A stretch of DNA of 64,000 bases from Bifidobacterium bifidum ATCC 29521 = JCM 1255 = DSM 20456 (GTDB lineage: Bacteria > Actinomycetota > Actinomycetes > Actinomycetales > Bifidobacteriaceae), in assembly GCF_001025135.1 (NCBI RefSeq), contig NZ_AP012323.1, positions 372,001 to 436,000 of the forward strand, read 5' to 3'. Both the position numbers and the translations under genes were made by a program. The notes beneath the pieces were generated by a model. The model was not told the DNA's origin. It worked only from the letters and a program-made list of their open reading frames with translations, and did no database searches. Shown piece after piece: positions 1 through 20,901 of this stretch; position 1 is the stretch's first letter, and every line of letters starts with the position of its first letter.

Positions 1-1
1 C

Positions 2-2215
2 ACCAGCCCGGACGCTGAGGGCAGCTACAAGGCGTTGGAGAAGTACTCCACCGATCTGACCGCCCGCGCCAAGGAGGGTAAGCTCGACCCGGTGATCGGG
101 CGTGATCAGGAGATCCGCCGTGTGATCCAGATCCTGAGCCGCCGCACCAAGAACAACCCGGTGCTGATCGGCGAGCCCGGCGTCGGCAAGACCGCCGTCG
201 TGGAGGGCCTCGCCCAGCGTATCGTGGCCGGCGATGTGCCGACCACGCTGCAGAACAAGAAGCTCATCAGCCTCGATTTGGGGTCGATGGTTGCCGGCTC
301 GAAGTACCGTGGCGAGTTCGAGGAGCGCCTCAAGAGCGTGCTCAACGAAATCAAGAACGCCGACGGCCAGATCATCACGTTCATCGACGAGATTCATACG
401 ATCGTCGGCGCTGGCGCGGCCGAAGGCTCGATGGATGCCGGCAACATGCTCAAGCCCATGCTGGCGCGCGGCGAGCTTCGCCTGATCGGCGCGACCACGC
501 TGGACGAGTACCGCGAGAACATCGAGAAGGACCCGGCGCTTGAGCGTCGTTTCCAGCAGGTGTTCGTGGGCGAGCCGAGCGTGGAGGACACGATCGCGAT
601 TCTGCGTGGCCTGAAGCAGCGTTACGAGGCGCACCACAAGGTGACGATCGGCGACGACGCGCTGGTCGCCGCCGCGACGCTTTCGAACCGCTATATTTCC
701 GGCCGTCAGCTGCCCGACAAGGCCATCGATCTGGTCGATGAGGCGGCCGCGCACCTGCGCATGGAGCTCGACTCCTCCCCGGAGGAGATCGACGGGCTGC
801 AGCGCAAGGTCACGCGCTACGAGATGGAGGAGATGCAGCTCAAGAAGGCCGAGGATCCGGCCAGCAAGGAGCGCTTGGAGAAGCTGCAGAACGAGCTCGC
901 GAACACTCGCGAGAAGCTGAGCGGCCTCAAGGCCCGCTGGGATGCGGAGAAGGCCGGCCACAACAAGGTCGGCGACCTGCGCGCCCAGCTGGACGCCAAG
1001 CGCGTCGAGGCTGACAAGTTCACCCGTGAGGGCAACCTGGCCGAGGCGTCGAAAATCCTGTACGGCGAGATTCCGGCGATTCAGAAGCAGCTGGACGCGG
1101 CCGAGAAGGCCGATGCGGAAGACGGCGCGACGGGCGAGACCAAGCCCGAGCCGATGGTGCCCGACCATGTGGACGCCGATTCGGTGGCCGGCATCGTCTC
1201 CGAGTGGACCGGCATCCCCGTCGGTCGCCTGATGCAGGGCGAGAACGAGAAGCTGCTGAGCATGGAGGACTACCTCGGCAAGCGCGTGATCGGCCAGAAG
1301 GAAGCGATCGCGGCGGTGAGCGACGCGGTGCGTCGTTCGCGCGCCGGCATCAGCGACCCGAACCGTCCGACCGGCTCGTTCCTGTTCCTCGGCCCCACCG
1401 GCGTGGGCAAGACCGAGCTCGCCAAGGCGCTCGCCGACTTCCTGTTCGACGACGAGAAGGCCATGGTCCGCATCGATATGTCGGAGTACATGGAGAAGGC
1501 GTCTGTGAGCCGTCTGATCGGCGCCGCGCCCGGCTACATCGGCTATGAGGAAGGCGGCCAGCTGACCGAGGCCGTGCGTCGTCGTCCGTACTCGGTGGTG
1601 CTGTTCGACGAAGTCGAGAAAGCTAACCCCGAAGTCTTCGACGTGCTGCTGCAGGTGCTGGACGACGGGCGTCTGACCGACGGCCAAGGCCGGACTGTGG
1701 ACTTCAAGAACACGATCCTGATCATGACCTCGAACCTCGGCTCGCAGTTCCTGGTGAACCAGGACATGGACGCGGACGCCAAGAAGAAGGCCGTGATGGA
1801 CGCGGTGCACATGAACTTCAAGCCGGAGTTCCTGAACCGTCTGGACGAGATCGTGATGTTCCATCCGCTGACCCGTGAGGAGCTGGGCGGCATCGTCAAC
1901 ATCCAGGTCGCTCAGGTGGCCTCGCGTCTGACGGATCGCCGCATCAAGCTCGACGTCACCGACGCGGCTCGCGAATGGCTCGCCAACACCGGCTATGACC
2001 CGGCGTACGGCGCTCGTCCGCTGCGCCGTCTGGTGCAGACCGAGGTCGGCGACCAGCTGGCGCGCATGCTGCTCGCCGGCAAGGTACACGACGGCGACAC
2101 CGTGCTCGTCAACCAGACCGGTGGCGAGCATCTGGAACTCGGTACCATGCCCGAGGATCCGGATGCCGGCTCCGATACCGACGTCACGGTCGAAGACGTC
2201 ACCGAAGACAAATGA
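2..2215 (+). CDS. clpB: ClpB disaggregase (5' end outside window)
   Basis: This is the AAA+ protein disaggregase that works with DnaK to rescue aggregated proteins in the cytoplasm. The reading frame is open from base 2, so the N-terminal substrate domain lies upstream of the window. Visible in order are NBD1 with Walker A GEPGVGKT and Walker [10 protein letters not shown], a long charged coiled-coil M domain (rich in Glu, Lys and Leu, roughly codons 250-370), and NBD2 with Walker [28 protein letters not shown] and the C-terminal small domain. The M domain separates it from ClpA and ClpC. It ends in an acidic tail, as is common in actinobacteria. The next gene is convergent, and the junction holds a large palindrome. 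Confidence 0.97.
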
Positions 2216-2301
2216 TGGCCGGGTGATGGCCGCATAATGGCCGAGTCGCGATGAGGGGAGGCCGGGCTCAATACCCGGTCTCCCCTCAATGCGTCATAAG
2301 T

Positions 2302-2443
2302 GCGTCACGCTGTGCGGGTCGCGTCACGCGGCGAGCGCTCGCACAGCGTGACGGTTCGTGAGAAGCCTTATTTTTCAACGTTTTTGGAGTATGCGTCACT
2401 CTGTGCGTTCGCTCTGCGTGACGTGACCCGCACAGCGTGACGC
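2302..2443. repeat. Convergent-junction inverted repeat, GCGTCAC family
   Basis: Perfect 19-bp arms at 2302-2320 and 2425-2443 enclose about 100 bp, which carries another copy of GCACAGCGTGACG at 2341. The same 13-mer occurs in the palindrome at 40355-40400. It lies between the ends of clpB and the mscS-like gene, so it may act as a bidirectional terminator or a REP-like element. Confidence 0.8.
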
Positions 2444-2509
2444 TGCATGGTGCGTGTGTAGGCGCTGTGGTGCCCGGATTCGCGCGTAAGTCCGAACGCG
2501 CCGCGACCC

Positions 2510-3283
2510 CTATTCGCCGACCGCGGCGCGCTGCTCCACGAACTCGCATCCAGCTATCGCGCGGGCCATGGCGTCGCGCATGGTGGACAGGAACACGCCG
2601 TCGCGCGTGAACGCCAGCGCCTGCACCTCGATGCCGTACGGCGAAAAACCGGTGAGCTTGACGAGTGGTTCGCTGCCGGGTTGCGCGAATTCGGCGGTGG
2701 CCGTGGCCACCGCGCGCTTCACTGCCTCCGTCACGTGCGCCGGGTCGCTGCCGGCCTTCGCGGTGAACGTCATCGTCACGCATCCTTCATTGGACGGCGT
2801 GAGCTTCTCCAGCGACGCGGTGTTGAGCACGGAATTGGGTATGACCATCTCGTTGCCATTGCGCTCGCGCACCACCGTCTGCCGCCACGTGATGTCCTTG
2901 ACCACGCCGGCCGTCCCCGCGACCGACACCAGATCGCCCGGCTGTATCACCTTGCCGAGCATCAGCCCGAAGCCCGAGATCACGTTCGCCACGGTGTCTT
3001 TCAGACCCAGCGACACGGCGATGCCGCCGACGCCGAGCGCGGTCATCAGTGTTGTCGGGCTGATGCCGAACACCGGCTGCAGCACGATGGACGCGGCCAG
3101 TATCCACACCAGCACGCGCATGATGTTGATGAATATCGACGCGCTCGGCATGTCCGTCCGATCCAGCACCTTGCGCATCACCCGTGCCAGTCCCTTGGTG
3201 ATCAACAGCGCGGCGACGATCGCCACCAGCAGGAAGATGATTTTCCCGGCGTTCGCCTCGAACCATTGCAGTATCTGATCCAT
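2510..3283 (-). CDS. Small-conductance mechanosensitive channel (MscS family)
   Basis: This 257-residue protein is a membrane channel that opens under hypo-osmotic tension. It has three hydrophobic segments (about residues 12-30, 50-70 and 75-100), then the MscS pore/beta-domain region with GVGGIAVSLGLKDTVANVISG and IPNSVLNTASLEKLTP, followed by the alpha-beta C-terminal domain. Length matches the minimal MscS type. The start was chosen at MDQILQWFE because GGAGGCGAC sits directly before this ATG. Longer in-frame starts upstream add only non-hydrophobic Arg-rich sequence. The TetR gene lies upstream on the same strand, 62 bp away. Confidence 0.93.
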   Translation of the reverse strand: MDQILQWFEANAGKIIFLLVAIVAALLITKGLARVMRKVLDRTDMPSASIFINIMRVLVWILAASIVLQPVFGISPTTLMTALGVGGIAVSLGLKDTVANVISGFGLMLGKVIQPGDLVSVAGTAGVVKDITWRQTVVRERNGNEMVIPNSVLNTASLEKLTPSNEGCVTMTFTAKAGSDPAHVTEAVKRAVATATAEFAQPGSEPLVKLTGFSPYGIEVQALAFTRDGVFLSTMRDAMARAIAGCEFVEQRAAVGE

Positions 3284-3345
3284 GTCGCCTCCAGGGTCGC
3301 GTCCGCGTCGCGCACCCCGCGGCGGCGACTGCTCTGCAAGCCACT

Positions 3346-3996
3346 TTAGTGGGCGGTTTTGAAATCTCCTGGAATGTCGCCTTTGAAAATGCGGCTCCAG
3401 TAGGCCAGCATGTTCTCCTTTGACATCGACAGGTACACTCCCATGGCGAGCACGGCGACATCCTCGTTGAGCAGGTCGTCGACCGAGAGTCTCTTGCTCA
3501 GCTCCGGCCACCGCCGCAGCACCGCGAGGATACCGCCGACGGTGAAGTCGAGCATCAGGTCGGTTTTCAGATCCAGGTTGCCGGCGTCGAGCTGGAGGTC
3601 GTTGATGATCATCAGACGGCCGAAGTCCTTCAGTGACTCGATGAGCTCGGGCGAGCTATGGCTGCCGGCGAGCAGTGCCAGACGGTCGAGCCGCTGCCGC
3701 TGAACTGGGTCGTTCATCACCAGGGAGCATTGGCGCCTCCATTCGATGTCGGGATTGAGGTCGGCGCGTGGCGCCTGCACGGTCGAGTGCTCTACGGCGT
3801 GCATGATCGCCGAATCGGCCAGCTCCGGCAGGCTGGCGTAATGGTAGTAGAACGAGTTGCGGTTGACATGCGCCTCGCGTACGACTTCGGTGACGGTGAT
3901 CTTGCGGTATTCGTGGTCTGCGAGCAGCTCCCAGAACGCGTTTTCGAGGCGTTCGGTCGCGGAGAGTATCTCGGAATCCTTGCGTGGGCGCGGCAT
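3346..3996 (-). CDS. TetR/AcrR-family transcriptional regulator
   Basis: This 216-residue protein has an N-terminal TetR DNA-binding domain: ATERLENAFWELLADHEYRKITVTEVV leads into a helix-turn-helix ending in HVNRNSFYYHYASLPEL, the typical TetR recognition-helix signature (NRNSFYYHY). The C-terminal ligand domain is divergent, so the effector is unknown. AGGAAGGGAACC precedes the ATG. It is co-oriented with the MscS-like gene downstream and a DUF2974 hydrolase upstream, which are possible targets. An AT-rich imperfect dyad sits just upstream of the gene, consistent with autoregulation. Confidence 0.92.
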   Translation of the reverse strand: MPRPRKDSEILSATERLENAFWELLADHEYRKITVTEVVREAHVNRNSFYYHYASLPELADSAIMHAVEHSTVQAPRADLNPDIEWRRQCSLVMNDPVQRQRLDRLALLAGSHSSPELIESLKDFGRLMIINDLQLDAGNLDLKTDLMLDFTVGGILAVLRRWPELSKRLSVDDLLNEDVAVLAMGVYLSMSKENMLAYWSRIFKGDIPGDFKTAH

Positions 3997-4041
3997 GATG
4001 GTTCCCTTCCTGCGTGGCGTGCGGCTATCGTTTATTGGGCA

Positions 4042-4074
4042 CTATGTCTATATGTGTGATATGGATTATTGTAG
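4042..4074. promoter_or_regulatory. AT-rich imperfect dyad upstream of tetR (possible operator)
   Basis: CTATG and ATAT half-elements are mirrored around GTGTG by ATAT and a diverged TTGTAG end. This is strikingly AT-rich for the region. The position 45-80 bp before the TetR start suits an autoregulatory operator and promoter. It is inferred from symmetry only. Confidence 0.35.
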
Positions 4075-4158
4075 GGCGGATCGTGAGGCGGATGATCGGA
4101 AAATAGGCGAACTGTCCATTTTTCTCGGTTGGCGAAACAGAGTTCGGGCACGAGACGG

Positions 4159-5433
4159 CTACCGCGAGGAACGGGACCGGACCGCGGCCATGAGCAGCCC
4201 CATCGCCTCGATCAGATGACGGCGATCCGCCTCCGACAGACCCACGAACGTGTTGATCATCGTGGGAACGGCCTTCAGGCCGGCCGCCATGAGATCGGAA
4301 ATGCTGTCGGCATGGCTCGACCGCAGCACGGAGAACAGGGCGTCCACCGCGCGCTCGCGGTCCTCGGTGCTCAACGATTCCAGCCAGCCGTTCAACGACC
4401 GGTTGAACAGCTGGGAACTCGGCGACACCTGCGGCAGATATTCGAAATCATTGCCCGAGACCTGCCAGGAGAACGTCAGATGCTGCATCACGCCCTTCTG
4501 GTCGGAGCGTACAACCCGCATCGGCTCGGGCGTCTCCAGAATCATGCCGACAATCGAGGAGTCCGGTACGATCTTCACGATGAGGGGCATGACGCTCCGA
4601 TACGGATCGCTGCCGACGATCTGCGACGGGAACCCCGGCCCGTCCAGCGAATACACCGCCGTGACACGCCGCTGCACCGGCTCGGGCGCGTTCATCGCCG
4701 CATACACGGCCAGATTGCCGCCCTTGGAATGCCCCAGCAGCACCATCGGGCCGCGCCACAGGCGCGCCACGGCGCACACATACTCACACGCCGCACGCTG
4801 TGCGGGCACCGGGTAGCGAAACGCCATGTTGAAATCCTCTTTCCAACCCACGAACGAGTCGTCCGTGCCGCGGAACGCCACCGCCAGAGTGCCGCCCGGC
4901 AGCAGCATGGTCACGGCGGCGAACTGCATCTGCTGTTCCTCGCTGAAATGCTCATCGGATGCGTCCACGCGAACGCAGGCAAAGCGCGGATTGACTCCGA
5001 TGGCGGCGTACAGCTCCTGCGTCAGGCGCGGGTCGGCGAGGCCGTTATGGCCGCTCTCCACATGAAAATCATCGGGGGTCAGCGCCTCCGACACCGAAGC
5101 CAGCGTTGCGTCGCCGAACTCCGGGGCGGCCAAATGGCGAATCGAGCGCACCGGATGGCGCACGTCGATGCTGCTCAGACGTCTGCGGAATGTGCCGGAT
5201 CGTGCCTCGACATCGGCCAGAGTCCGCACGCATGCCGGCATGTCCTGATAGACAAGCGACGCCAGCACCAGCGCGTCGACGGCGTTGAACGGTGCGTCGA
5301 CGCCGAACGGGCGGGTCTCGGAACGTGCATAATCGATGATGTTGGGCGTCGTGCGCCTCCTTTCCGCCGCGGCGGGGCTATGCTTGTCGTCCGGAGCCGC
5401 TAAGGGCCGGGCGGGTGACCGGTTACCCGTCAA
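4159..5433 (-). CDS. DUF2974 (Mbeg1-like) alpha/beta-hydrolase
   Basis: This predicted serine hydrolase has the DUF2974 N-terminal signature NIIDYARSE...PFNAVDALVLASLVYQD, a strand leading to LAVAFRGTDDSFVGWKEDFNM, and the nucleophile elbow GHSKGGNLAVYAA. The substrate is unknown. Family members resemble lipases or esterases. The start is uncertain. A TTG gives 424 residues, but the family-like sequence begins only at TPNIIDYAR. A strong AAAGGAGG lies just before that point (about 5365) with no ATG, GTG or TTG in frame at the right spacing. The gene is divergent from the aminotransferase and upstream of tetR on the same strand. Confidence 0.88.
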   Translation of the reverse strand: MTGNRSPARPLAAPDDKHSPAAAERRRTTPNIIDYARSETRPFGVDAPFNAVDALVLASLVYQDMPACVRTLADVEARSGTFRRRLSSIDVRHPVRSIRHLAAPEFGDATLASVSEALTPDDFHVESGHNGLADPRLTQELYAAIGVNPRFACVRVDASDEHFSEEQQMQFAAVTMLLPGGTLAVAFRGTDDSFVGWKEDFNMAFRYPVPAQRAACEYVCAVARLWRGPMVLLGHSKGGNLAVYAAMNAPEPVQRRVTAVYSLDGPGFPSQIVGSDPYRSVMPLIVKIVPDSSIVGMILETPEPMRVVRSDQKGVMQHLTFSWQVSGNDFEYLPQVSPSSQLFNRSLNGWLESLSTEDRERAVDALFSVLRSSHADSISDLMAAGLKAVPTMINTFVGLSEADRRHLIEAMGLLMAAVRSRSSR

Positions 5434-5540
5434 TATACCCGGTTCCCAACCCGCGCGAACCCAGCAACAACCGGCGACATGCCCTGTTGTGCGTGGTCGG
5501 TGGTAAAAACGAAACCAGAGTCCAACGGGGAGGTTGTGCC

Positions 5541-6731
5541 ATGATCAACGAAACATACAAAGCCATGCTCGGCGGCAAATCGGTCATTCGAACCCTGAGT
5601 GAATACGCGACCGCAAGGGGCACCGAAATCGGATACGACAACGTGTTCGACTATTCGCTGGGCAACCCGAGCGTGCCGTGCCCGTCCAGCTTCACCAAGG
5701 CGATGATCGACATGTACGAGACCGCCGATCCGGTCGCGCTCCACGGATACAGCCCGTCGCTGGGCAACCCGGAGGCGTGCCGCACCATCGCCGAAAGCCT
5801 CAACCGGCGTTTCGGCATGGATTACACGGCCGGCCATATCTTCCCGACGACGGGTGCCGCCGGTGCGCTCGCCCACGCGCTGCGGGCCGTCACCAAGCCC
5901 GGCGACGAAGTGCTCACGTTCGCGCCATACTTCCCCGAATACCATCCGTATGTCGAAGGCGCGGGCGCGCGGCTGACCGTCGTGCCCGCCGACATCGAGA
6001 GCTTCCAGATCAACTTCGCGGCGTTCGAGGCGGCGCTGAACCCCGAGGTGACGGTCGTGCTCATCAACACGCCGAACAATCCCTCCGGCGCGGTGTATTC
6101 GGCCGAAACGCTCGACCGGCTCGCGGGTATCCTGCGGGCGAAGCAGGCCGAATACGGTCACGACATCTTCCTGATCAGCGACGAGCCCTACCGCGAGATC
6201 GTGTTTGACGGCGGCACGCAGCCGTACCCGGCCAAGTTCTACGACAACACGCTGACCTGCTACTCCTGGTCGAAGTCGCTGAGCCTGCCGGGCGAGCGCA
6301 TCGGCTACGTGGCAGTCAACCCGCGGGCGACCGACGCCGAACTCATCGTGCCGATGTGCGGGCAGATCTCACGCGGCACCGGCCACAACTGCCCGAGCTC
6401 CAGCATGCAGCTCGCCGTGGCGAAGATCATCGACGAGACCAGCGACCTGAGCGTGTACGAGACGAACATGAACCTGCTGTACGATGCGCTGACCTCGATC
6501 GGCTTCGACGTGGTGCGCCCGGGCGGAACGTTCTACATCTTCCCGAAGGCGCTGGAAGCCGACGCGAACGCCTTCTGCATGAAGGCCAAGGAATACGACC
6601 TGATCCTGGTGCCGTCCGACAGCTTCGGCGTGTCCGGGTACTTCCGCATGGCCTACTGCATCGACACCGACAAGGTGAAGCGGTCGATTCCGGTGCTGGA
6701 GCGCTTCGTGCGCGAGGAATACGGATTGTAG
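5541..6731 (+). CDS. Class I/II PLP-dependent aminotransferase
   Basis: This 396-residue fold-type I aminotransferase is probably an aspartate/alanine-type enzyme of amino-acid metabolism in the cytoplasm. Seen are the substrate loop NTPNNPSGAVYS (about 177-188), SDEPYRE (213-219) and the PLP lysine in SWSKSLSLPGERIGY (Lys245), followed by the Arg that binds the carboxylate near FRMAY. The start is ATG with GGGGAGG seven bases upstream; a longer open frame begins further upstream but has no ribosome-binding site. Its TAG stop forms the outer end of a perfect 41-bp palindrome. Confidence 0.93.
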   Translation: MINETYKAMLGGKSVIRTLSEYATARGTEIGYDNVFDYSLGNPSVPCPSSFTKAMIDMYETADPVALHGYSPSLGNPEACRTIAESLNRRFGMDYTAGHIFPTTGAAGALAHALRAVTKPGDEVLTFAPYFPEYHPYVEGAGARLTVVPADIESFQINFAAFEAALNPEVTVVLINTPNNPSGAVYSAETLDRLAGILRAKQAEYGHDIFLISDEPYREIVFDGGTQPYPAKFYDNTLTCYSWSKSLSLPGERIGYVAVNPRATDAELIVPMCGQISRGTGHNCPSSSMQLAVAKIIDETSDLSVYETNMNLLYDALTSIGFDVVRPGGTFYIFPKALEADANAFCMKAKEYDLILVPSDSFGVSGYFRMAYCIDTDKVKRSIPVLERFVREEYGL

Positions 6732-6822
6732 GCGAAACCGCGCTCTCAAAACTCGCAGATACAGCCCCAAAATGTCGATTCTGGGGCTGTATCTGCGAGT
6801 TTTGAGAGCGCGGTTTCGCCTA
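6729..6822. repeat. Perfect 41-bp palindrome, family CTCTCAAAACTCGCAGATAC
   Basis: Arms 6729-6769 and 6782-6822 match over all 41 bases with a 12-base loop. The outer half carries CTCTCAAAACTCGCAGATAC, which recurs as an inverted pair at 60393-60496 and as a single copy at 14086-14106. It starts on the aminotransferase stop codon. It could terminate transcription, although no T-run follows, or be a MITE/REP-like element. Confidence 0.9.
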
Positions 6823-6954
6823 AGAGCATCCAGAAAGCATCAGAAAACATTCGGAAACCGTTCCGCAAGGTTGCAGGACGGTTCAACGTCAGGCGCAGGG
6901 GCCGCTAGGAAAGCCGTCGTTCAATGGAGTCAATCCAAGGAAAGGACGACGACC

Positions 6955-8187
6955 ATGCAACCCCATGACATGCAACCCCATGCGAGCCCCGGCGGCTCGC
7001 GGCGGCGTCGACCGCCGGTAATCGCGACGAGGCGGATGGTCGCCCTCACGGGTGGCCTGTGCGCGAGCCCCGGCGGCATGGTGCTGATTCGGCACCTCTC
7101 GGCCGGTTCCGCTGGCCCCGCCTCAACCATGCAGCCGCCGAGCGGCAACTTCGGTGGCGGCGCCAACACCATGCAATACGACTATTCCGGCAGCTACTCG
7201 GTGTCGCTCACCGTCGGCGAAGACTCCACCGCCGTCATCGACGGTACCGACATCACCGCCTCCAGCTCCGGGTCGAACGGCGTCTTCGCCACCGATTCCG
7301 GAACGGCGCTCGTCAACGACACATCGATTGAGACCATGGCCGACAATTCACGCGGGCTGGACGCGACCTACGGCGGCACGATATCGGCGAACAAGATCAC
7401 CGCGGACACGCAGGGCGGCCACAGCGCCATCGTCGCCACCGATCGAGGCGGCGGATCGATCTCTCTCGCCGATGCGACGCTGAGCACCGCCGGCTCCGGC
7501 TCCCCGCTGCTGTATTCCACCGGCGACATTCAGGTGAACAACGTCTCCGGAACCTCATCCGGCAGCCAGATCGCCGGCATGGAAGGCCTCAATACGATCC
7601 TGATCAAGGATTCGACGTTGGAAAGCACGGTCACCGGCAAAACCGCATCCGACCCGATCGCCAATGGCACCATCATCTACCAGTCCACCTCGGGCGATGC
7701 GGAAGCCAGCACCGGCGAGCACGCCACGTTCCAGTCGGTCGATTCCACACTCAGCTCCGCCATCGGATCAGGGTCGATGTTCTACTTCACCAACACGACC
7801 GCCGATGTGGTGCTGCAGAACACTGAGCTTGATTTCGACACCGACGCGGCGACGCTCACGGACAACGCGGCGGCCGGCTCCGGCACGGGCACGGCGAGCG
7901 ACGCCCCCATCACTGTGAATGTCGACGGCACGTCCACGTGGGTGGTGACGAAGGATACGACCATTTCCGCGCTCAACGTCGCTTCCGGCGGCGACGGCAA
8001 CACCGTCACCATCGTGGCGAACGGCAAGACCGTGGTCTCCGGCAGCGGCGACGTGACCGTCACGGTGACCGGCTCGTATTCGACCTCGGTCTCGGCCGGG
8101 AGCGACACGGAGCTGTCGAGCGACACCATCGACCGCAGCGAGTTCGACAGCCGGTTCGGCACATCGACAGCGTGGACGATGGCATAA
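6955..8187 (+). CDS. Secreted beta-helix surface protein
   Basis: This 410-residue protein has an Arg-rich cytoplasmic N-terminus, a weakly hydrophobic segment (about 28-52), then a juxtamembrane stretch MQPPSGNFGGGAN and a long Ser/Thr/Gly/Asp-rich region. Short repeating strands such as TALVNDTSIETMADNSRGL, GSPLLYSTGDIQV and MFYFTNTTADVVLQ are typical of right-handed parallel beta-helix or adhesin-like proteins of gut bacteria. No catalytic residues or LPXTG motif are seen. The start is ATG after AAGGAAAGGA. The next gene, 66 bp downstream, encodes a membrane protein with the same juxtamembrane motif, suggesting a shared surface role. Function is unknown; carbohydrate or host-surface binding is inference. 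Confidence 0.8.
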   Translation: MQPHDMQPHASPGGSRRRRPPVIATRRMVALTGGLCASPGGMVLIRHLSAGSAGPASTMQPPSGNFGGGANTMQYDYSGSYSVSLTVGEDSTAVIDGTDITASSSGSNGVFATDSGTALVNDTSIETMADNSRGLDATYGGTISANKITADTQGGHSAIVATDRGGGSISLADATLSTAGSGSPLLYSTGDIQVNNVSGTSSGSQIAGMEGLNTILIKDSTLESTVTGKTASDPIANGTIIYQSTSGDAEASTGEHATFQSVDSTLSSAIGSGSMFYFTNTTADVVLQNTELDFDTDAATLTDNAAAGSGTGTASDAPITVNVDGTSTWVVTKDTTISALNVASGGDGNTVTIVANGKTVVSGSGDVTVTVTGSYSTSVSAGSDTELSSDTIDRSEFDSRFGTSTAWTMA

Positions 8188-8253
8188 CCATGGCGGCGTG
8201 CCAGACATCAACATCAGCAATCACTTCATCAGTCAGTTTTCAAAGGAGTCATC

Positions 8254-9009
8254 ATGACCAGCAACAACAGCAACAATGTCAACAATGCGAATGGCGGCGA
8301 GAGCGGCAACAGCGCGGATGGTGCCATCGAGGGCGTCGCTATCGAGGTTGCGGCGAACGTCACCGGTTCGGAGCAGCATCAAGCGGCTGTAAATGACGCC
8401 GCTGTGGCTGATGGTGACCGGGCTGCGGCAGACAACGGCGGTACAGACGAGTATGCGGGGAATCGTGCGGCTGGTCTGGGAGATACCGAATGGGCTGCCG
8501 GGACCGGGGCTGCTGGATGCGGAACCGCCGGATACGGCTCGGCTGGGTATAGGCTCGCGGCAGCTCCGGGCAGTTCCGGCTATGCGCCGAACGGTCCGAT
8601 GCCGGGGAGCTACGGCGAGGGATCGCGTGCGGCGTGGTACGCGCAGAATGCGCCGACGCAGGCAATGAATCCGCAGCCGGGGAATATGCAAGCGGTGAGT
8701 GGCCAGAACATGAACGCGCAGGACGCGAATATGCAGGGCGCGAATACACCAGATGCGAACGCGCAGGGCGGCCGGATGCCGTTGTATGCGGATTGGAACG
8801 GCCGGGGGCCGGTGCCTGGAGCAATGGGCGGTCAGGTCCCGACACCGAAAGGCTCGAAGGGCGGCGAACACGCGTTGAGCGGTAAGACGTGGGCATTGCT
8901 CGCCGTGGTGTCTCTGGTCTGCGGCCTCGTGGGCGGCGTCGGTGGAGCGCTCGCGGTGAACGCGCTGACCGACGACGAAGATGGCACAGGCAGCAGCCAG
9001 CAGATGTAG
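8254..9009 (+). CDS. Membrane protein with low-complexity N-terminus, cut by in-frame TAG
   Basis: This 251-residue product begins after AAAGGAGTCATC. The Asn/Gly/Ala-rich N-terminal 200 residues contain degenerate repeats (NMQ, NAQ, DAN), then one transmembrane segment TWALLAVVSLVCGLVGGVGG and a short tail ending GSSQQM. The same frame continues straight after the TAG for 60 more residues of extracytoplasmic Gly/Ser-rich sequence. The tail therefore looks lost to a CAG-to-TAG change, as the surrounding residues are Gln-rich. It is probably co-transcribed with the beta-helix gene. Confidence 0.65.
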   Translation: MTSNNSNNVNNANGGESGNSADGAIEGVAIEVAANVTGSEQHQAAVNDAAVADGDRAAADNGGTDEYAGNRAAGLGDTEWAAGTGAAGCGTAGYGSAGYRLAAAPGSSGYAPNGPMPGSYGEGSRAAWYAQNAPTQAMNPQPGNMQAVSGQNMNAQDANMQGANTPDANAQGGRMPLYADWNGRGPVPGAMGGQVPTPKGSKGGEHALSGKTWALLAVVSLVCGLVGGVGGALAVNALTDDEDGTGSSQQM

Positions 9010-9192
9010 ATGCTCGGAGGCATGGGGCAGCCGCCCAGCGGCGGCCAATTCGGCAATAGGCAGTTTCAGCAGTATGGCGGCTCAGGGAAGTCGGACAGCC
9101 AGCTCGGCAGTGGTTCCAGTGGCTCCGGCAGCAGCTCCAGCGGTTCCGGTTCCTCGTACAGCTCCGACGGCAGTGATGCGACCACAATGTAA
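9010..9192 (+). pseudogene. Detached Gly/Ser-rich C-terminal tail of the preceding membrane protein
   Basis: This piece is in the same frame as the upstream gene and begins with the codon right after its TAG. It encodes MLGGMGQPPSGGQFGNRQF and then a Ser/Gly-rich stretch. QPPSG..FG matches the juxtamembrane motif of the beta-helix protein. There is no ribosome-binding site of its own apart from possible coupling at the TAGATG junction. It is read as a nonsense-separated domain, with readthrough or reinitiation as alternatives. Confidence 0.6.
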
Positions 9193-9280
9193 GCCATGAG
9201 CCGGGCAAGGCTCAGCGCGAAGTGAAAGCGTCCAACCGCAATCGCTGCCCCCTATCTGCCCCCATCATCCTCGTCAAATT

Positions 9281-9390
9281 ACGGGTTGAAATAGCCGTTC
9301 TGGGCAATTCCCCGTGCGAAATCGCCGTTTTGAGCTCGAAAAACGGCGATTTCGCACGGGGAATTGTGGATCTCGGCTATTTCAACCCGT
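9281..9390. repeat. Long imperfect palindrome at convergent junction
   Basis: The outer arms (16 bp, 9281-9296 with 9375-9390) and inner arms (27 bp perfect, 9305-9331 with 9340-9366) fold into one long hairpin. It shares no obvious sequence with the other palindromes. It sits after the surface-protein pair and before reverse-strand hydrolase debris. Confidence 0.85.
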
Positions 9391-9483
9391 ATTTTCGCGT
9401 TCTGTTCGCCCTCCACAGCCCGTAAATGGCCCAGCCGGTCGGGCTTTACGGCTCATCCGGCCAGCGCATCGCTGACGAATCGG

Positions 9484-9687
9484 TCGACCGTCGACCAATG
9501 CGGCCCTTGCCTCCTCGGCTGCATCACGGCGCGCGCCCTCCAGCTTGGCGCCGGGAACCTTACCGGCCCTGACCAGTTTCATCATCGAAAGCGGCGCCTG
9601 CGTGTCAAGGACGAATCGGAACATGAACGCCGACGTGGCCAGCGTCAACGCGCCTGCGGACGCCGCGGCGATGCCGGTAATTCGGCA
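9484..9687 (-). pseudogene. N-terminal remnant of a membrane-anchored alpha/beta hydrolase
   Basis: The open stretch encodes a signal-anchor-like segment GIAAASAGALTLATSAFMFRF followed by VLDTQAPLSMMKLV and KVPGAKLEGARRDAAEEA, which resembles the start of bifidobacterial membrane-anchored hydrolases of the prolyl-oligopeptidase-like type. No start codon, nucleophile motif or catalytic domain remains. Both sides run into non-coding DNA, so it is called a remnant. Confidence 0.45.
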
Positions 9688-9978
9688 TCCGCGCCGTACC
9701 CGGCCGGCGCGTCGCGAGCGAAATGAGTCATGCCGATGCGTGAAAGCAGCCGGCGCAAACGCAGCGCAGCTTCCCCTGCGGATACCCTGTGCCGACTGGA
9801 TTCCAAGCCGGCTGCACGGCCCAAGCGCGGCCGGCATGCCCGGGAAGAGCGCGAAAGGCGAAAAATCCTCACGACCTCTAGCGAACCGCGCGAACGGTTG
9901 TTAGTGTTGATGCACAGACGATTTCGGTTGCCGCGGCAGGCGTGCCGTCGGCTGATTGACGCGGCGCGCCGAACGCCG

Positions 9979-10062
9979 CATATACCGCTTGGTGCGCACC
10001 AGACGTAGAGCGGCGGTCTCCAAAACCGCAGGTCGTTGGTTCGAAGCCAACCGCGTATGCCA
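9979..10062 (+). other. tRNA-Trp(CCA)-like fragment, possible attachment site
   Basis: The 3' half is intact tRNA: anticodon stem GCGGT/ACCGC with loop CTCCAAA (CCA anticodon), T arm GTTGG-TTCGAAG-CCAAC, then an acceptor strand, G and CCA. The 5' half is poor: the D loop is too long and the 5' acceptor strand pairs badly. It abuts a phage-type HTH gene, so it may be the tRNA-end footprint of an integrated element. Confidence 0.5.
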
Positions 10063-10063
10063 G

Positions 10064-10339
10064 TCACTTGTTTTTTCGGGGTCTGCCTCCGCCGACGCCC
10101 CGACCGGGACGCTTCGTGTTCCATCCGTCTATCGTCTCCGGGAGCCAGCCGCGCGTGCGGCCTATCATGGCGTCGGGTTCGGGGAGCTTGAGGTTGAGCA
10201 GGCCGCCGCTGGTTATGCCGAGGCGTTCGGCGACCTGCTTGAAGCCGAGAGATATGCAGTCCGAGAACACGCGACACGCAGTGAATCTTAACGACCGCAG
10301 GACTAGGCAAACAACAAATGGCACTACGCAGATGCTCAT
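10064..10339 (-). CDS. Small phage-type HTH protein (AlpA/excisionase-like)
   Basis: The recognisable core is GFKQVAERLGITSGGLLNL, then DAMIGRTRGWLPETIDGWN and a basic tail GGGRPRKNK. This is a winged-HTH pattern seen in short prophage and plasmid regulators of actinobacteria. The first 30 residues of the open frame are Cys/Val-rich and not family-like, so the start is uncertain (GTG at VFSDCISLG is possible). It stops two bases from the tRNA-like CCA end and sits beside an HNH fragment, suggesting remains of a mobile element. Confidence 0.45.
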   Translation of the reverse strand: MSICVVPFVVCLVLRSLRFTACRVFSDCISLGFKQVAERLGITSGGLLNLKLPEPDAMIGRTRGWLPETIDGWNTKRPGRGVGGGRPRKNK

Positions 10340-10506
10340 ACACCCACTGCCACCTGCCCGTCACCCGCGGCCAAGCATGGGACCTCGGACATAACGACCG
10401 GCGCGACGGATACAACGGACCCGAACGCGCGAGCTGCAACCGCAAAGCGGGAGCGGCCAACGGCAACCGCATGCGCGAACACTGGAACAAGCAAACAGGA
10501 AACAAC
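10318..10506 (+). pseudogene. C-terminal HNH endonuclease fragment (phage type)
   Basis: The translation has the zinc-finger and HNH features CSYTHCHLPV, WDLGHNDRRD, YNGPERASCNRKAGAANG. These match the C-terminal part of small phage HNH nucleases (Cys pair, DxGH and the Asn-Arg-Lys end). The N-terminal half is missing and the frame then runs antisense through the acyl-CoA ligase, so it is a truncated fragment of a prophage gene. Confidence 0.5.
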
Positions 10507-10530
10507 GTGGCGACTGCAGGCCGGGTGAGC

Positions 10531-12363
10531 CTACTTCTTCTTCGGCACGTAGATCACAGTGTCGATCAGTTCTCGGTAGTGCGCGACGATCTGCGCGCGG
10601 CGGGTCTTCAGGCTGGCCGTCAGCATGCCGTTGTCTTGTGTGAACTCGTCGGGCAGAATCTCGAACTTGCGGATCGACTCGGCGCGAGACACGCCCTCAT
10701 TGGCCTGATTCACCGCACGCTCGACTTCGGTGTGCACGATCGGATTGCGGGCCAGCGACGCCAGGTCGGACTCCTCCTGAGCGCCCTGCGATTTCAGCCA
10801 CGCGTTCGCATCGGCGAGATCCAACGTGACCAGCGCGGCCACGAACGGCTTCCGGTCGCCGATGACCAGACACTGGTTCACAACCGGCGATGTCATCACG
10901 GCGGCCTCCAACAGGCCGGGGGAGACGTTCTTGCCGCCGGCGGTGATGATCAGATCCTTCTTGCGGCCGGTGATCGAAATGAAGCCGTCCTCGTCGATGT
11001 CGCCCAGATCGCCGGTGTGCAGCCAGCCGTCGACGATCTGCTCGGCGGTCACATCGGGATGGTTGTGGTATCCGCGGCAGACCAGATGGCCGCGTACGCA
11101 CAGTTCGCCGTCGTCCGCGATACCCGCGGTGACGCCGCTCATCGGCATGCCGATCGTGCCGATCCGATTGTTCTCCGGCAGGCTCACGCACACCGGCCCG
11201 CAGGTCTCCGTCATGCCGTAGCCCTCAAGCAGCGGCATGCCGATGCCGTTGAAGAAGTGCGAAAGGTTGGCGTCCATCGGGGCGCCGCCGGTGATGGCGA
11301 AGTCGGCGTTCGGGCCGAAAATCGTGCGGATCTTCTTGTACACCACCAACTCGTAGAACCCGTGGGCGAGGCGCCCCCGCCACGGCAGTTTCTCGCCGGC
11401 CTGCTCGGCCTTCGACCAATCCCGCGCCACGTCCGCCGCACGCAGGAACATCTTGCCGGCGATGCCCTTGCCGGCGCGCTGCGACGCTGCGTTATACACC
11501 TTCTCGAACACGCGAGGCACCGCCAGCAGCAGCGTCGGGCCGAACGACTCGAAATCCTTGACGATCGTCTTCATGTCGGAACTCAGTCCCAACGTCAGCG
11601 TGCCGCAGAAGCTCAGCAGCTCCATGAACCGCGCGAACACGTGGCTCAGCGGCAGGAACAGCAGCAGACGGCGGTCGGGCCACGCGCAGGCGCGGGGCAT
11701 GTACTGCATGGCCGACAGGCACAGGAACGCCAGATTGCGGTGCGACAGCTCCACGCCCTTGGGGGTGCCGGTGGAGCCGGACGTGTAGACGATCGTCGCG
11801 AGGTCGTCGCCGTGGGCGTCGTTCTTGCGCGCCCAGAACTCCTCGTCGCTCACTTCCTTGCCATACGCCTGCAAGGCTTCGAGCGCGCCGGCCTCGATCA
11901 CGAACACCTTGCGCAGCGACTGCACCTCATCGTGGATGGATTCGATCTTGTCGCGCTGCCCGTCGTCCTCGGCGAACGCGATCGTGGCCTGCGAATCGTT
12001 GAAGATCCAGCTCACCTGAGCGTCGGAATTCGTCTCGTAGACCGGGACGGTGAGCGCCCCGACCGCCATGATGGCCATGTCGAGCGCGGTCCATTCCCAG
12101 CGCGTACGCGACACGATTGACACGGCGTCGCCCTTCTTCACACCCAAGCCGATCAGACCCTTGCCCAGGGCGATCACCAGGTCGCGGAACTGCGTCGCGG
12201 AGAACGACTTCCAGCCGCCGTCCGCCTTGTATTCGACGGTCGAGCCGTCCGGGTCGCGCTGGGCGCGGCGGTCAAGGAAATCAAACAGGTTGATATCGTC
12301 GTCGATCGGTTCCTTCAGCGGATTGGTGAACTCTTTGACCATGGTCGAGGAATTTACTGTCAT
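10531..12363 (-). CDS. Long-chain fatty-acid-CoA ligase
   Basis: This 610-residue ANL-superfamily enzyme activates fatty acids with ATP and CoA for lipid metabolism. Visible are the P-loop [11 protein letters not shown] (193-203), [10 protein letters not shown], the A5 motif [10 protein letters not shown], the A7-type [27 protein letters not shown] and a C-terminal lysine region KNVSPGLLE. The ATG at [12 protein letters not shown] was chosen; AAGAGAG precedes it closely and the upstream extension is not family-like. Just upstream lie two poly-G runs. Bacterial members of this type (FadD15-like) have this length. Confidence 0.93.
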
Positions 12364-12416
12364 ACTCTCTTGAATACTCTCAGCGCGGTACAAAAACCGC
12401 GCGACAGGCGGCATTC

Positions 12417-12434
12417 GGGGGGGGCGGGGGGGGG
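12417..12434. repeat. G8-C-G9 homopolymer tract upstream of acyl-CoA ligase
   Basis: Eight G, one C and nine G lie 54-71 bp upstream of the ligase start, where its promoter or leader would be. Such runs slip readily. The rest of 12364-12645 shows no gene. Confidence 0.85.
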
Positions 12435-12645
12435 CGAGCATGCGGCGCGATGATGTCGCATTATGTGCGTCGCGCGTGGCCGGGGCTGTACGATGGAGGC
12501 AGGTTTGCCAGTATCGCGCCTTCGGTGGCGCGGCGCGGTGATTCGTGGCCGATGAAGGTGACGGGCGGAATAGGCGAGGCGCGGGCGAGATACAGGCGAG
12601 CGGCATGAGCCGGAGCGAAGCGGCCCGAGCCGGACGGGAGCAATC

Positions 12646-13027
12646 ATGAACATGCCGCCGGGCTGGTATCCGGACCCATCGGGCGATCCCTCGCTGATGC
12701 GTTGGTGGGATGGCGAGGAATGGACCGGTGACTTCGCGCCGGCGCAGCAGGTGACGCCGGACGGCAACCGTATTCGCCGGGCGCGTACCCGATGACGAAT
12801 AGCGACCGCAACCTGCGTCTCACTGCATTCATCCTCAACATCATCTCGATGGTCGCGTTGGGATGGACGTTGCTCCCGCTGGCATGGATGATCCCGATGA
12901 CGGTGATGAGTTGGGGCATCTACAAGGGCACGCGGGCCAACACCGTGGCGTTCGGTGTGTGCAACCTGCTGTTCGTGAATACCATTTTTTTGGGGGGGGG
13001 CTGCCCGTCAGCAACAAAGAGCGGTGA
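12646..13027 (+). pseudogene. DUF2510 membrane protein, apparently frameshifted twice
   Basis: After GGGAGCAATC an ATG opens MNMPPGWYPDPSGDPSLMRW, the DUF2510 signature, but the frame closes at TGA 12793-12795. A second frame begins at the overlapping ATG 12792 and encodes TNSDRNLRLTAFILNIISMV and PLAWMIPMTVMSWGIYKG, the two-helix membrane part usually fused to DUF2510. Near the end a T7-G9 run (12985-13000) sends the frame off course; with one more G it would end GGGLPVSNKER-stop at 13027, as in relatives. It may be a phase-variable gene, two ATGA-coupled genes, or decay. Confidence 0.6.
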
Positions 13028-13122
13028 CCGATTCCGCGGAATTTCAGGCGTGTCGCGATTTTTGTCCCGTTTGTACAGGCGGTCGGGTAATGTATTCCCC
13101 TGTTGCCTGTCAAGGTGACATT

Positions 13123-13195
13123 GCGGACATAGCTTAGTTGGTAAAGCGCAACCTTGCCAAGGTTGAGACCGCGGGTCCGAGTCCCGTTGTCCGCT
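13123..13195 (+). tRNA. tRNA-Gly(GCC)
   Basis: Acceptor GCGGACA pairs with TGTCCGC. The anticodon arm is CAACC-TTGCCAA-GGTTG and the T arm follows with GGTCCGAGTCCC. CCA is not encoded. It is first of a four-tRNA cluster. Confidence 0.93.
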
Positions 13196-13243
13196 CGCAG
13201 ATTCGGCTGGCTGAAGCGATTCGGCCGGTCGGCACGCAGACCC

Positions 13244-13315
13244 GGGCGGTTGGCGCAGAGGTAGCGCACTTCCCTGACACGGAAGGGGTCACAAGTTCGA
13301 ATCTTGTATCGCCCA
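13244..13315 (+). tRNA. tRNA-Val(GAC)
   Basis: Acceptor GGGCGGT pairs with ATCGCCC. The anticodon arm is CTTCC-CTGACAC-GGAAG, giving anticodon GAC. The T loop is TTCGAAT. CCA is not encoded. Confidence 0.93.
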
Positions 13316-13345
13316 CGGATGCCGAAGTTCACTTCGGTGTGCACT

Positions 13346-13418
13346 GGGTGATTGGCGCAGCGGCTAGCGCACTTCCTTCACACGGAAGGGGTCGTAGGTT
13401 CGATTCCTACATCACCCA
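13346..13418 (+). tRNA. tRNA-Val(CAC)
   Basis: Acceptor GGGTGAT pairs with ATCACCC. The anticodon arm is CTTCC-TTCACAC-GGAAG, giving anticodon CAC. It is closely similar to the neighbouring Val(GAC) gene in the D and anticodon arms, consistent with tandem duplication. Confidence 0.93.
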
Positions 13419-13442
13419 CGGCCGCTACGGTGGTCGGTTTTC

Positions 13443-13515
13443 GGGGCTATGGCGCAGCTGGTAGCGCATCTCCATGGCATGGAGAGGGTCAGGGGTTCGA
13501 ATCCCCTTAGCTCCA
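13443..13515 (+). tRNA. tRNA-Ala(GGC)
   Basis: Acceptor GGGGCTA pairs with TAGCTCC. The anticodon arm is TCTCC-ATGGCAT-GGAGA, giving anticodon GGC. It is last in the cluster and is followed at once by a terminator. Confidence 0.93.
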
Positions 13516-13525
13516 CAGAACAGAA

Positions 13526-13562
13526 CGTCCCTCCTTCCGGGAGGGGCGTTTCTTGTTTTTTC
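13526..13562 (+). terminator. Terminator of the tRNA cluster
   Basis: A 9-bp stem CGTCCCTCC/GGAGGGGCG with a five-base loop is followed by a T-rich run ending TTTTTT. Confidence 0.85.
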
Positions 13563-14085
13563 GAGCCTATACCCGCAGGCGAGGATCCTCGGCATCGACA
13601 GCTCCCCGGACATGATCACCTCGGCGCGCAAGCTCCGCCCCGACTGCGATTTCGATGTGCTGGACGCCGGGTCGCTCGACGAGCTCGACACCGATTTCGA
13701 TGTAGTCTTCTCCAACGCCTGCCTGCAATGGGTGCCGAACCATGAACGGGTGCTGCCCTCCATGCTGCGACGGCTTAACGCCGGCGGCATCGCGGCGGCG
13801 CAATTCACCGAGAACATCAACCTGCCGCCGCACATCATCATGCGCGAGACCGCGTGCGAGCCGAAATGGCGGCAGTGGATCAGCGAGATACGCCGCTACT
13901 GCAATCTCGGCGGCGACAATTTCGACGTAAGCGCATACTATGATCTGCTCGCCCCGCTCTCCGCGCACGTCGACGTGTGGGAGACGAACTACTACCATGC
14001 GCTGCCTGGGTATGAGGCGATCCTCGACTGGTATCGCGGTACCGGTCTGCGCCCGTATCTGGCCCAGCTGCCCGATGACGGCCTA
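13563..14085 (+). pseudogene. Trans-aconitate methyltransferase-like gene, truncated at both ends
   Basis: The open frame has the middle of a SAM-dependent methyltransferase of the trans-aconitate methyltransferase type: ILGIDSSPDMITSARK (motif II), DLDTDFDVVFSNACLQWVPN with the family ALQW-like signature, then AAQFTENINLPPHIIMRETA and YHALPGYEAILDWYRGTGLRPYL. The first 40 or so residues including the SAM-binding GCG motif are missing, because the fragment starts right after the tRNA terminator. The end is cut exactly where the repeat element begins. The fragment is internal and cannot be active. Confidence 0.7.
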
Positions 14086-14106
14086 TATCTGCGAGTTTTG
14101 AGAGCG
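14086..14106. repeat. Solitary half of the CTCTCAAAACTCGCAGATAC element
   Basis: TATCTGCGAGTTTTGAGAGC equals one arm of the palindromes at 6729-6822 and 60393-60496, but without an opposing arm nearby. It marks the 3' breakpoint of the truncated methyltransferase gene. Confidence 0.85.
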
Positions 14107-14245
14107 TCGGTTGAGCGAGCCATAGATTTTTCATATGTCCGCGGTCTTGTGTCGCGCCCTGCGACGTGCTTCGATGGTGGGTGCCGGCGGCAAGGGGCTT
14201 CGCCGGTGCCATATCAATGGTTCGCACGTCAAGAAGGGGGTTGTG

Positions 14246-14365
14246 ATGGTGTCCACCACATTGGACTTCGCCGAGAAGTACCTGCTGAAAACCGAGGTCA
14301 GGACCGTCGCGGTCATGCCCGACGACGATGATTCGGTGCGTGATGATGATTCGTACGACGCATAG
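14246..14365 (+). CDS. Small acidic protein of unknown function
   Basis: This 39-residue frame begins with ATG after AAGAAGGGGG at good spacing. It reads MVSTTLDFAEKYLLKTEVRT and ends in an Asp-rich tail (PDDDDSVRDDDSYDA). It is not recognised. An N-terminal amphipathic helix and acidic tail are all that can be seen. It lies in decayed DNA between a truncated methyltransferase and a HIT remnant, so it may itself be a fragment. No modification enzyme that would suggest a RiPP precursor lies nearby. Confidence 0.35.
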   Translation: MVSTTLDFAEKYLLKTEVRTVAVMPDDDDSVRDDDSYDA

Positions 14366-14510
14366 TGCGGTGATCGTTCTCGATGATGTTTGTGCGAGGA
14401 TGACTCATATTCCCGCACAAGTGCGCATGATGCGGATTCCCGGAATCCCGAGACTTGCTTTCGCTTGATGCCCGATTGGCCCGGTACCATACTCGCGCCT
14501 GTATCATTGA

Positions 14511-14699
14511 GGACGATTCGTTGCATATCTTGCCACCGGGAAGGGCCATCATGGGGCGCAGTCGGTGATGCATTTCCACGTGCACTTAATCCCGCGCAGA
14601 TATGGGGACGGATTGGACACCTGGTCCAAGCTGCCGGGCCGCTCGCTCGACCTCGATACGGCATGGCGGCGGTTGTGGCGGGGAAAATCGACTTCGTGA
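14511..14699 (+). pseudogene. HIT-family protein C-terminal remnant
   Basis: The frame contains the histidine triad QSVMHFHVHLIPR followed by RYGDGLDTW, the hallmark of HIT nucleotide hydrolases. A TGA closes the frame just upstream, no N-terminal domain is found, and the end is short. The rest of 14366-14882 holds no other recognisable gene. Confidence 0.55.
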
Positions 14700-14882
14700 G
14701 GATTGTGATATAGGACATCAAAACGGCGGGATTCCGCCGATGCAACCTGTGGTTGCGCACGGTTGCGGGGCATGGTCGGCGATTGCAACCGTAAGATGGT
14801 GGCGGATGGCGCGGACGGCGTGCCATAGTGGGGTCATCGGCCGAACATGACATGATGGAATCACTTGAGAAGGGATTTGACG

Positions 14883-16130: not shown

Positions 16131-16147
16131 CAAGGAAAGGACGGCCG

Positions 16148-16696
16148 ATGGATGATCTCGCCGCGTCTCGTGAGCGGTATCCGTTGCAAACCATGCGATT
16201 GCCGGATGGCGAACCCTTCGCATACCGGTATCATCGCAATCCCTCCGCCCGCGCAACGATTGTGCTCCTGCCGGGCGGAATCGGGCTGTCCGACTGTTCT
16301 GCCTGCATTTTGAACGGTTCGCCGAGGACTGCTCGGTCATCACCTTCGATTATCAGGAGCGGTTCGCGACGAACGCCGAACTGGCGCGTGCCATCGCAAG
16401 TGGAAGCGGACGCTTCGCCTGATACCGATGCCGCTGCACCGGCGTCTGATGGCGTGGGCCGTGATGCGCAAGACGCAAGACCTGTCGTCTGGCGAACGGC
16501 GGCTGATGCAGGGCCTGTGCGATGTCCTCAAGCAGTTGCTGAGCAAGCCGTATCAGCGGCATATGGCCGATTTGCTGATCGATGCTGCGTCGCACGCCGA
16601 CATGGTGACGGCGGTCATCTCGCGCTGTTGGTGCGCATGGACGAGTACATGGATACCGTACGCGCCTTCAGCGGGTCGCATGCGGCCCGCTCTTAG
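16148..16696 (+). pseudogene. Alpha/beta hydrolase, frameshifted and internally deleted
   Basis: A good AAGGAAAGGA precedes ATG and the N-terminus MDDLAASRERYPLQTMRLPD and TIVLLPGGIGLSD, typical of alpha/beta hydrolases. Near 16290 the homologous sequence jumps one frame (FCLHFERFAEDCSVITFDYQ), then stops. Only later pieces such as KPYQRHMADLLIDAASHADM and MDEYMDTVRAF, in different frames, recall the C-terminal half. The nucleophile elbow is gone. It follows the XRE regulator closely, as if once co-expressed. Confidence 0.65.
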
Positions 16697-16705
16697 CAGG
16701 CGTCT

Positions 16706-17677: not shown

Positions 17678-17694
17678 TTCTGTTCTGCCGTCTA

Positions 17695-20871: not shown

Positions 20872-20901
20872 GCGGTCATCGGTACGGTGATTGGTCCAAT
20901 A

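Follow-up and report, generated by a model that had tools for sequence, protein, structure and literature searches.

Results

The palindromic element in the window and its copies in the chromosome

The window, that is, the whole stretch of 64,000 nucleotides analysed here (positions 372001–436000), lies in the chromosome of Bifidobacterium bifidum, a single contig of 2,211,039 bases to which we refer as G000. One palindrome in this window follows a gene for a PLP-dependent aminotransferase, and a second one is situated between a Ham1/RdgB-family gene and a permease gene, which we take to be of the AEC type (Table 1). According to the first-pass annotation of this DNA, the same 20-mer forms the arms of both palindromes. 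Indeed, the 20-mer was found exactly at both arms of each copy, on the plus strand at the left arm and on the minus strand at the right arm, at a chance expectation in the window of 0.01 and a largest count of 1 in 100 shuffles. The palindromes were also found where the annotation had placed them: the one at 6729–6822 has 45-nt arms that are 98% complementary, while the one at 60393–60496 has 22-nt arms that are 100% complementary. The first of these starts directly on a stop codon, and the stop codon ahead of the second ends five bases before it, as had been noted previously. The lone half-copy proved to be real as well, since the 20-mer is present with one mismatch at 14085–14104 on the minus strand. 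This half-copy was said to sit at a gene truncation point, and it does adjoin the relic of a trans-aconitate 2-methyltransferase gene, the open reading frame of which is cut at both ends. The 5′ part of the relic runs out of the tRNA-Ala gene, and its open reading frame matched the trans-aconitate 2-methyltransferase profile only over positions 47–218 of 258, below the model cut-off. A search of the 64-kb window against Rfam at gathering scores returned tRNAs only.

Table 1. Genes, palindromic elements and associated features in the window
Feature	Position	Strand	Remarks
PLP-dependent aminotransferase gene	5415–6731	+	stop 11 nt ahead of copy 1
Copy 1, left outer flank	6729–6742		TAG stop at 6729–6731, A-run at 6735–6737, GC-rich stem base; pairs with 6809–6822
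Copy 1, 66-bp class	6743–6808		arms 6743–6762 and 6789–6808; paired palindrome 6729–6822
Copy 1, right outer flank	6809–6822		CGCGG, then T-run at 6814–6816 (family T-tract, outward positions 6–9)
Trans-aconitate methyltransferase gene relic	13516–14104		5′ cut beside tRNA-Ala, 3′ cut at the half element
Half-copy, one arm	14086–14104	−	19 exact bases; joined to the methyltransferase gene relic
Ham1/RdgB-family gene	59719–60387	+	ends 7 nt ahead of copy 2
Copy 2, 100-bp class	60395–60494		arms 60395–60414 and 60475–60494; between convergent Ham1/RdgB and permease genes
Integral membrane protein (permease) gene	60509–61510	−	ends 14 nt after copy 2; used in the sister-species comparison

A search of the whole chromosome, as the annotation had advised, retrieved a 19-base arm 49 times with at most two mismatches, including 31 exact matches, while the reversed control gave none. 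This did away with the case, raised in the annotation, that only the copies in the window exist. Altogether, G000 contains 23 two-armed palindromes of 65–100 bp, which fall into classes of 65/66 bp (n=16), 77/78 bp (n=5) and 100 bp (n=2), plus three damaged copies that are omitted from the counts on the 23. One of the latter has an internal deletion (465880), another is the half-copy of the window (386086), and in the third the right part enters another repeat (567678).

Among 14 copies of 66 bp, the mean ungapped identity was 96% for the arms and 37% for the central 22 bp. The most similar cores in this class were 73% identical, and recent movement is therefore not seen there. The description of the cores as unrelated holds for these diverged sequences. 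It does not hold for the 77/78-bp copies, which, as judged by eye, have a GGAAAATGGCGG-like core in common that also occurs in elements of other species. Twenty-nine of the 46 arms were perfect. A matching change in both arms was observed in three copies, whereas 10 of the 13 changed copies displayed unmatched changes, either in one arm only or differing between the arms. Thus, the arms are held alike while the cores drift.

Palindromes of other types were also encountered. In the window, these include a GCGTCCTTAAGTGCGCGCCGAAACGA-type palindrome of about 118 bp (20895–21020) and CGTCACGCTGTGCGGG-type palindromes of about 140 bp or fragments thereof (2302–2443 and 40355–40400), both with further occurrences in the G000 sample; a repeat similar to the CGTCACGCTGTGCGGG type adjoins the damaged copy at 567678. 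The repeat at 37518–37722 carries two TATCTGCGTTTCGAGGGG-like words together with two inverse words, has other copies of about 133 bp, and has TATCTGCG in common with the arm studied here. Furthermore, a long palindrome at 9276–9395 has 56-nt arms (88% complementary) and an 8-nt loop, and the palindrome CGCGCCAACCGCGAGTTCTGAT at 63691–63812, whose inner word occurs a third time, overlaps a gene call. Elsewhere in G000 there is a CGACACGCCCGGAGTGCGCAGCA family of about 115 bp (L193, 756–872 and 1892–2005; L201, 12423–12539; L203, 591–704), and other Bifidobacterium species have multi-copy palindromes of their own, such as GATCTGCGTTACGGGTAGTGCC in G075 and GCGAGTTGTCGGTGCGCGG in G110 (samples L206–L245).

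Distribution among bifidobacteria

Using a covariance model (E ≤ 0.01), we detected the family in at least 16 of 112 Bifidobacterium genomes, G000 included; this number is a lower bound as stricter filters lose weak matches. The weakest carriers, G023 and G086, gave only weak matches and their elements were left aside, so that 51 elements were read from the 13 other carriers among the matches listed. Most of these have arms of about 20 bp of the form CAAAA-TCG-AGATA or CGCACAAGTCGGCAGATA around a centre like TGGCGGAATTCCGCCA and measure 75–82 bp; one element is trimmed to 68 bp, and four copies in G018 combine CAAAAGTTGCAGA arms with other centres.

The exact G000 arms found no match in a wider collection of genome contigs, from which near records may be left out. 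A relaxed two-arm pattern returned five stretches from genome contigs, three in Bifidobacterium sp. ESL0763, one in B-bin1 and one in Mobilisporobacter. The last of these, at 6212–6261 of Mobilisporobacter senegalensis (L075), lies outside the genus and is perhaps due to chance. A phage or plasmid origin was rejected, as three exact patterns were without a match in viral contigs and plasmids gave only weak ones (blastn with copy 1: two Tritonibacter matches, E 0.4). The family was not described for Bifidobacterium in the titles and opening parts of abstracts, or in the passages of PMC1590033, PMC3116915 and PMC13155455 that were consulted, and a text search of the papers covered for the arm and central-palindrome words found neither.

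Hairpin structure and flanking sequences

RNA folding produced one long hairpin for each of the two copies, with −87.2 kcal/mol (z −20) for copy 1 and −56.4 kcal/mol (z −7.5) for copy 2. For covariation, 30 elements drawn from five genomes were aligned and 26 stem pairs of our own choosing were scored. In these pairs, 91.2% of the cells were paired and 14 pairs showed changes on both sides, giving a covariation score of 0.249 versus 0.108 for shuffled and at most 0.079 for slid pairs. The unit follows one plan, in which two inverted arms of 20 bp enclose a variable, often self-complementary centre, and a GC-rich stem base with a T-tract stands on each side.

The first base outward of the arm was C in all 46 flanks from G000 and the next one was G in 78% of them. 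Further out, T reached 48, 67, 48 and 33% at positions 6–9 in G000, and 66, 62 and 72% at positions 6–8 in G025. Over 148 flanks from 74 elements, T made up 36–51% at positions 6–9 versus 11–25% at positions 17–30, and TTT was present in 55 near flanks (positions 1–14) versus 11 far flanks (positions 27–40). The T-tract stands at one fixed distance from the arm, with a consensus near CGyGnTTT, and this includes four copies called inside genes. In co-directional contexts, the downstream side had more T than the upstream side in 16 cases, less in 10 and as much in 11 (sign test, P 0.16). As the T-tracts are short and about as frequent on the side that would have no need of them, they may belong to the unit itself instead of having arisen by selection site by site. 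The hairpin with its GC-rich stem is strong but the U-tract is short, and a consensus terminator scan of positions 1–20000 does not list copy 1.

Gene context

The gene context was determined with our own gene calls, which were made from codon usage and are distinct from curated annotation. In G000, a stop codon lies within 24 nt of 18 of the 23 copies versus 8% of random placements (P about 4e-16), the latter being drawn from intergenic gaps no shorter than 66 bp in 464 kb of G000. Eight of these 18 copies are flanked on either side by the stop codon of a convergent gene at no more than 14 nt. One of the five copies that are not stop-adjacent lies between divergent genes. With respect to orientation, 11 copies are placed between convergent genes, 11 between co-directional genes and one between divergent genes, the corresponding random proportions being 27, 47 and 25%. 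A distance of 24 nt or less to a stop codon was seen in only 4 of 38 other long palindromes from the same G000 sample. Among the relatives, 27 of 50 elements are stop-adjacent by the same measure, and their contexts are convergent (18), co-directional (26), divergent (2) or, by our calls, inside a gene (4, two of them well supported); these 50 omit one G118 copy that lacks a called gene on one side. Of 20 flanking proteins that were scanned, 18 had a Pfam family. The neighbours include aminotransferases, Ham1, permeases, DAP epimerase, VKOR, endonuclease III and a glycosyltransferase, and this variety indicates that the genes do not form one regulon.

Sister species, shared loci and species-specific arm ends

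The genomes nearest to G000 as judged by one protein (86–89% identity) are G066, G105, G108 and G109, none of which has a family match. The Ham1/permease junction measures 121 bp from stop to stop in G000, 100 bp of which is element; among genomes that have both genes, the same gap in the six nearest measures 16 (G109), 24 (G066), 42 (G108), 53 (G020), 123 (G078) and 181 bp (G105). At the 1788749 junction, 66 of the 81 bp in G000 are element, and the gap elsewhere measures 11 (G078), 11 (G066), 26 (G109), 29 (G110), 71 (G105), 99 (G023), 140 (G108) and 232 bp (G020). For the 318929 junction, the left gene was found in 3 of the 10 genomes searched and both genes only in G020, with a gap of 143 bp. 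The element was not present at these junctions in the sister species. Compared with the shortest sister gaps, the element is an extra unit; the gap lengths vary so widely that a clean insertion or an empty site cannot be named.

Unrelated long palindromes were observed behind the permease gene in G078 and behind the gene left of 318929 in G020 and G110, the one in G110 occurring five times in the sample of its own genome. The palindromes behind the permease gene in G103, G080, G036, G088 and G001 belong to other junctions, at which the Ham1 gene is not adjacent.

Three loci of G000 are possibly shared with other carriers: the Ham1/permease junction with G025 (410154), the site 318929 at a permease 3′ end with G025, G034 and G029, and 2141793 with G115 (78669), where the element is upstream of a 96%-identical gene. 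Since about 1.3 shared genes are expected by chance on a rough estimate, these three loci are no more than suggestive of common sites.

G025 and G034 have four element loci in common, with both flanking proteins 84–95% identical. One of these falls within the coding sequence of an ABC-ATPase, and here the element is read in frame, separating the ABC_tran domain from the AAA_assoc_C domain. The eight copies read from G034 end in CTCAC on all 16 arms, while the 22 arms of 11 A-type copies from G025 end in GTTAC (19) or GTCAC (3). The G025 count omits 5 of its 16 copies, which have other arm types and two of which start with CTCAC. In G117, three A-type copies have mixed ends (GTTGC, GTGAC, GTTAC and GTTAT). 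Given the mixture in G117 and the CTCAC in some G025 copies, the species-specific ends hold best for G034 versus G025. At the four shared loci, copies of the same arm type carry the different species-specific ends on both arms. The A-type ends differ at every locus, on the left and the right arm alike, and the cores differ as well, which simple drift would not produce. Such coordinated differences would result from a co-evolving trans factor or from repeated replacement at the same sites.

Interpretation of the family

On balance, we lean towards the view that these are old, dispersed and non-autonomous REPIN-like palindromes without a RAYT, which form bidirectional terminator-like hairpins at the 3′ ends of genes. 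Most likely, the family works as a 3′-end hairpin and predicted bidirectional terminator. When transcribed from either side, the unit would fold into a single long hairpin with U residues behind it, and this hairpin could end or protect mRNAs from one neighbouring gene or from both. Such a role at mRNA ends would keep copies at the 3′ ends of genes, especially between convergent ones. A putative trans-acting protein, for which a mobilising recombinase or an RNA- or DNA-binding host protein are candidates, would read the arms, and the arms would for this reason remain alike within a species, unlike the cores. Past mobility of the family, like termination and the trans factor, is what we infer from the genomes compared here.

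The main alternative, which we regard as possible though unlikely, is that the palindromes are purely selfish MITE- or REPIN-like elements, moved in trans by a recombinase other than Y1, and that their location at 3′ ends reflects the least harm. The first-pass annotation had likewise proposed a mobile MITE- or REP-like unit, and this proposal stood in part. On the positive side, the palindromes are dispersed, multi-copy and patchily present, their ends are conserved and their centres variable. In addition, coding genes of two species carry in-frame copies at the same place, and sister junctions are without the element, albeit with gaps too variable for a firm statement. The architecture is also that of REPINs in so far as these are described in the parts of PMC3116915 that were consulted. 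The marks of mobility that the annotation had proposed to look for did not appear. The Y1 transposase (PF01797) was absent from G000 and present in only one of the 16 carriers (G086), which is also the only overlap with the seven of 112 Bifidobacterium genomes that encode this enzyme; the same search was positive in 5 of 14 control genomes. No target duplications were seen in 74 elements over 444 combinations of offset and length, the strongest signal being 4-mers in 5 of the 74 elements versus 0.63 expected. A parent insertion sequence with the same ends was not found either, as no arm pair was spaced at insertion-sequence distance in G025, G034, G115, G117 or the G000 arm list; in the four relatives, the only occurrences of the arm word outside known elements were five isolated copies of an identical word and a single other one. 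Near-identical cores, which are missing from the 66-bp class, were found as one pair 1.3 kb apart in G025. A purely selfish element also fits poorly with a stop adjacency that is far tighter than that of other palindromes in G000 and with copies that stay at shared loci across species. Membership in the RAYT/REPIN system was rejected for want of the transposase, yet a REPIN-like mode of working may apply. Two further candidates were dropped: attC-like sites, because the copies are mostly isolated and symmetric by inspection, and a helical phase relation among the classes of 66, 78 and 100 bp, because three classes are too few.

The position of the copies along the chromosome bears on another alternative, namely that they are the sites of a DNA-binding protein with a role in chromosome organisation or linked to division, and are rare near the replication terminus. 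With exceptions, the GC skew of G000 is mostly positive over the first 0.9 Mb or so and turns mostly negative beyond 1.1 Mb, and this noisy pattern places the origin near coordinate 0. The half of the chromosome around this coordinate holds 21 of the 26 G000 places (Rayleigh P 6e-4) and, among the matches listed, 13 of 16 G025 copies (P 2e-3) and 20 of 24 copies pooled from eight other single-contig genomes (P 3e-4). Thus, the copies lean towards the replication origin and are rare in the terminus half. Other palindromes in 20 evenly spaced stretches of G000 showed no such lean (12 of 29 in the same half). The test was confined to single-contig genomes, with the origin checked in G000 and assumed in the others. 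Conservation of the arms in sequence, and not in pairing alone, would suit a chromosome-organising protein, as would the species-specific ends at shared loci if that protein co-evolved. Nevertheless, we consider this reading improbable: such sites need no palindromes of 65–100 bp with T-tracts behind stop codons, the pooled genomes share loci and their counts are not independent, and regions near the origin may simply be more stable.

A broader and rather doubtful proposal is that the palindromes are read-out sites of a co-evolving putative protein and, together with their rarity in the terminus half, constitute a chromosome-wide site system in bifidobacteria. It draws on the outer bases of this arm type, which change together from G034 to G025 in every copy, shared loci and the one in a coding gene included, whereas the cores drift. 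We know of no counterpart of such a system in these bacteria. If the proposal is true, the system could be that of a terminator factor, a mobiliser or a nucleoid organiser.

It is very unlikely that the elements entered the loops of terminators that were already there, so that the outer stem and T-tract would be native. Flank bases did pair with their own partner above those of others at positions 1–3 (P 0.04 in G000, 0.014 in G025, 0.019 in G034 and 2e-4 for 50 elements from outside G000), but at positions 4–12 this was not significant (P 0.27, 0.10, 0.98 and 0.055, respectively), and a T-tract at a fixed distance, in-gene copies included, looks like part of the unit. Lastly, ordinary intrinsic terminators that are alike by chance or shared composition would explain the location and the T-tracts, and stem-loops generally concentrate near the 3′ ends of bacterial genes according to the parts of PMC1590033 consulted, but this idea deserves hardly any credence and its chance-similarity reading is refuted by the copy number of an identical arm of 19 bases, from which most other G000 palindromes differ in sequence.

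For bifidobacterial genetics, the family is a source of candidate bidirectional terminators. A REPIN-like build in carriers that mostly lack Y1 (15 of 16) asks what else spreads or maintains such repeats. For telling a co-evolving trans factor from repeated replacement, G025 and G034 are a clean test bed, since their shared junctions hold copies whose ends change together from one species to the other.

Comparison with known systems

REPINs are thought to depend on RAYT, and their hairpins carry a tetranucleotide of the GTAG/GGAG type at the foot. Judged from the flank tables, the elements studied here have no conserved GTAG at this place; in G000, C and then G stand beside the arm. As far as described in the parts of PMC3116915 consulted, REPINs are extragenic and consist of two conserved inverted ends around a hairpin spacer of constrained length, with compensatory changes. 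The present family resembles them in its two inverted conserved ends and in a hairpin spacer of constrained length, and differs in the lack of a RAYT in G000 and nearly all other carriers, in the strong stop adjacency with T-tracts and in the origin-proximal lean.

The stem-loop repeat families Bor, Ype, Efa, ERIC and NEMIS are species-specific intergenic hairpins that are enriched at the 3′ ends of coding sequences, as described in the parts consulted of PMC1590033, the main text of which does not mention Bifidobacterium. Our family is like these by description, but differs in the coordinated species-specific ends seen here at shared loci. Rickettsia palindromic elements lie in frame inside genes; the two in-frame copies in ABC-ATPase genes are similar, although copies in genes are a small minority here. 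The sites of SlmA or Noc, which are chromosome-organising or division-linked, are depleted around the replication terminus, and a comparable depletion was observed for our family among the matches listed, with pooled loci that are not independent. Finally, bidirectional Rho-independent terminators resemble the family in their symmetric stem, with an A-run before and a T-run after it, and in their frequent position between convergent genes, whereas the family is distinguished from them by a sequence-conserved stem of at least 20 bp and a short T-tract.
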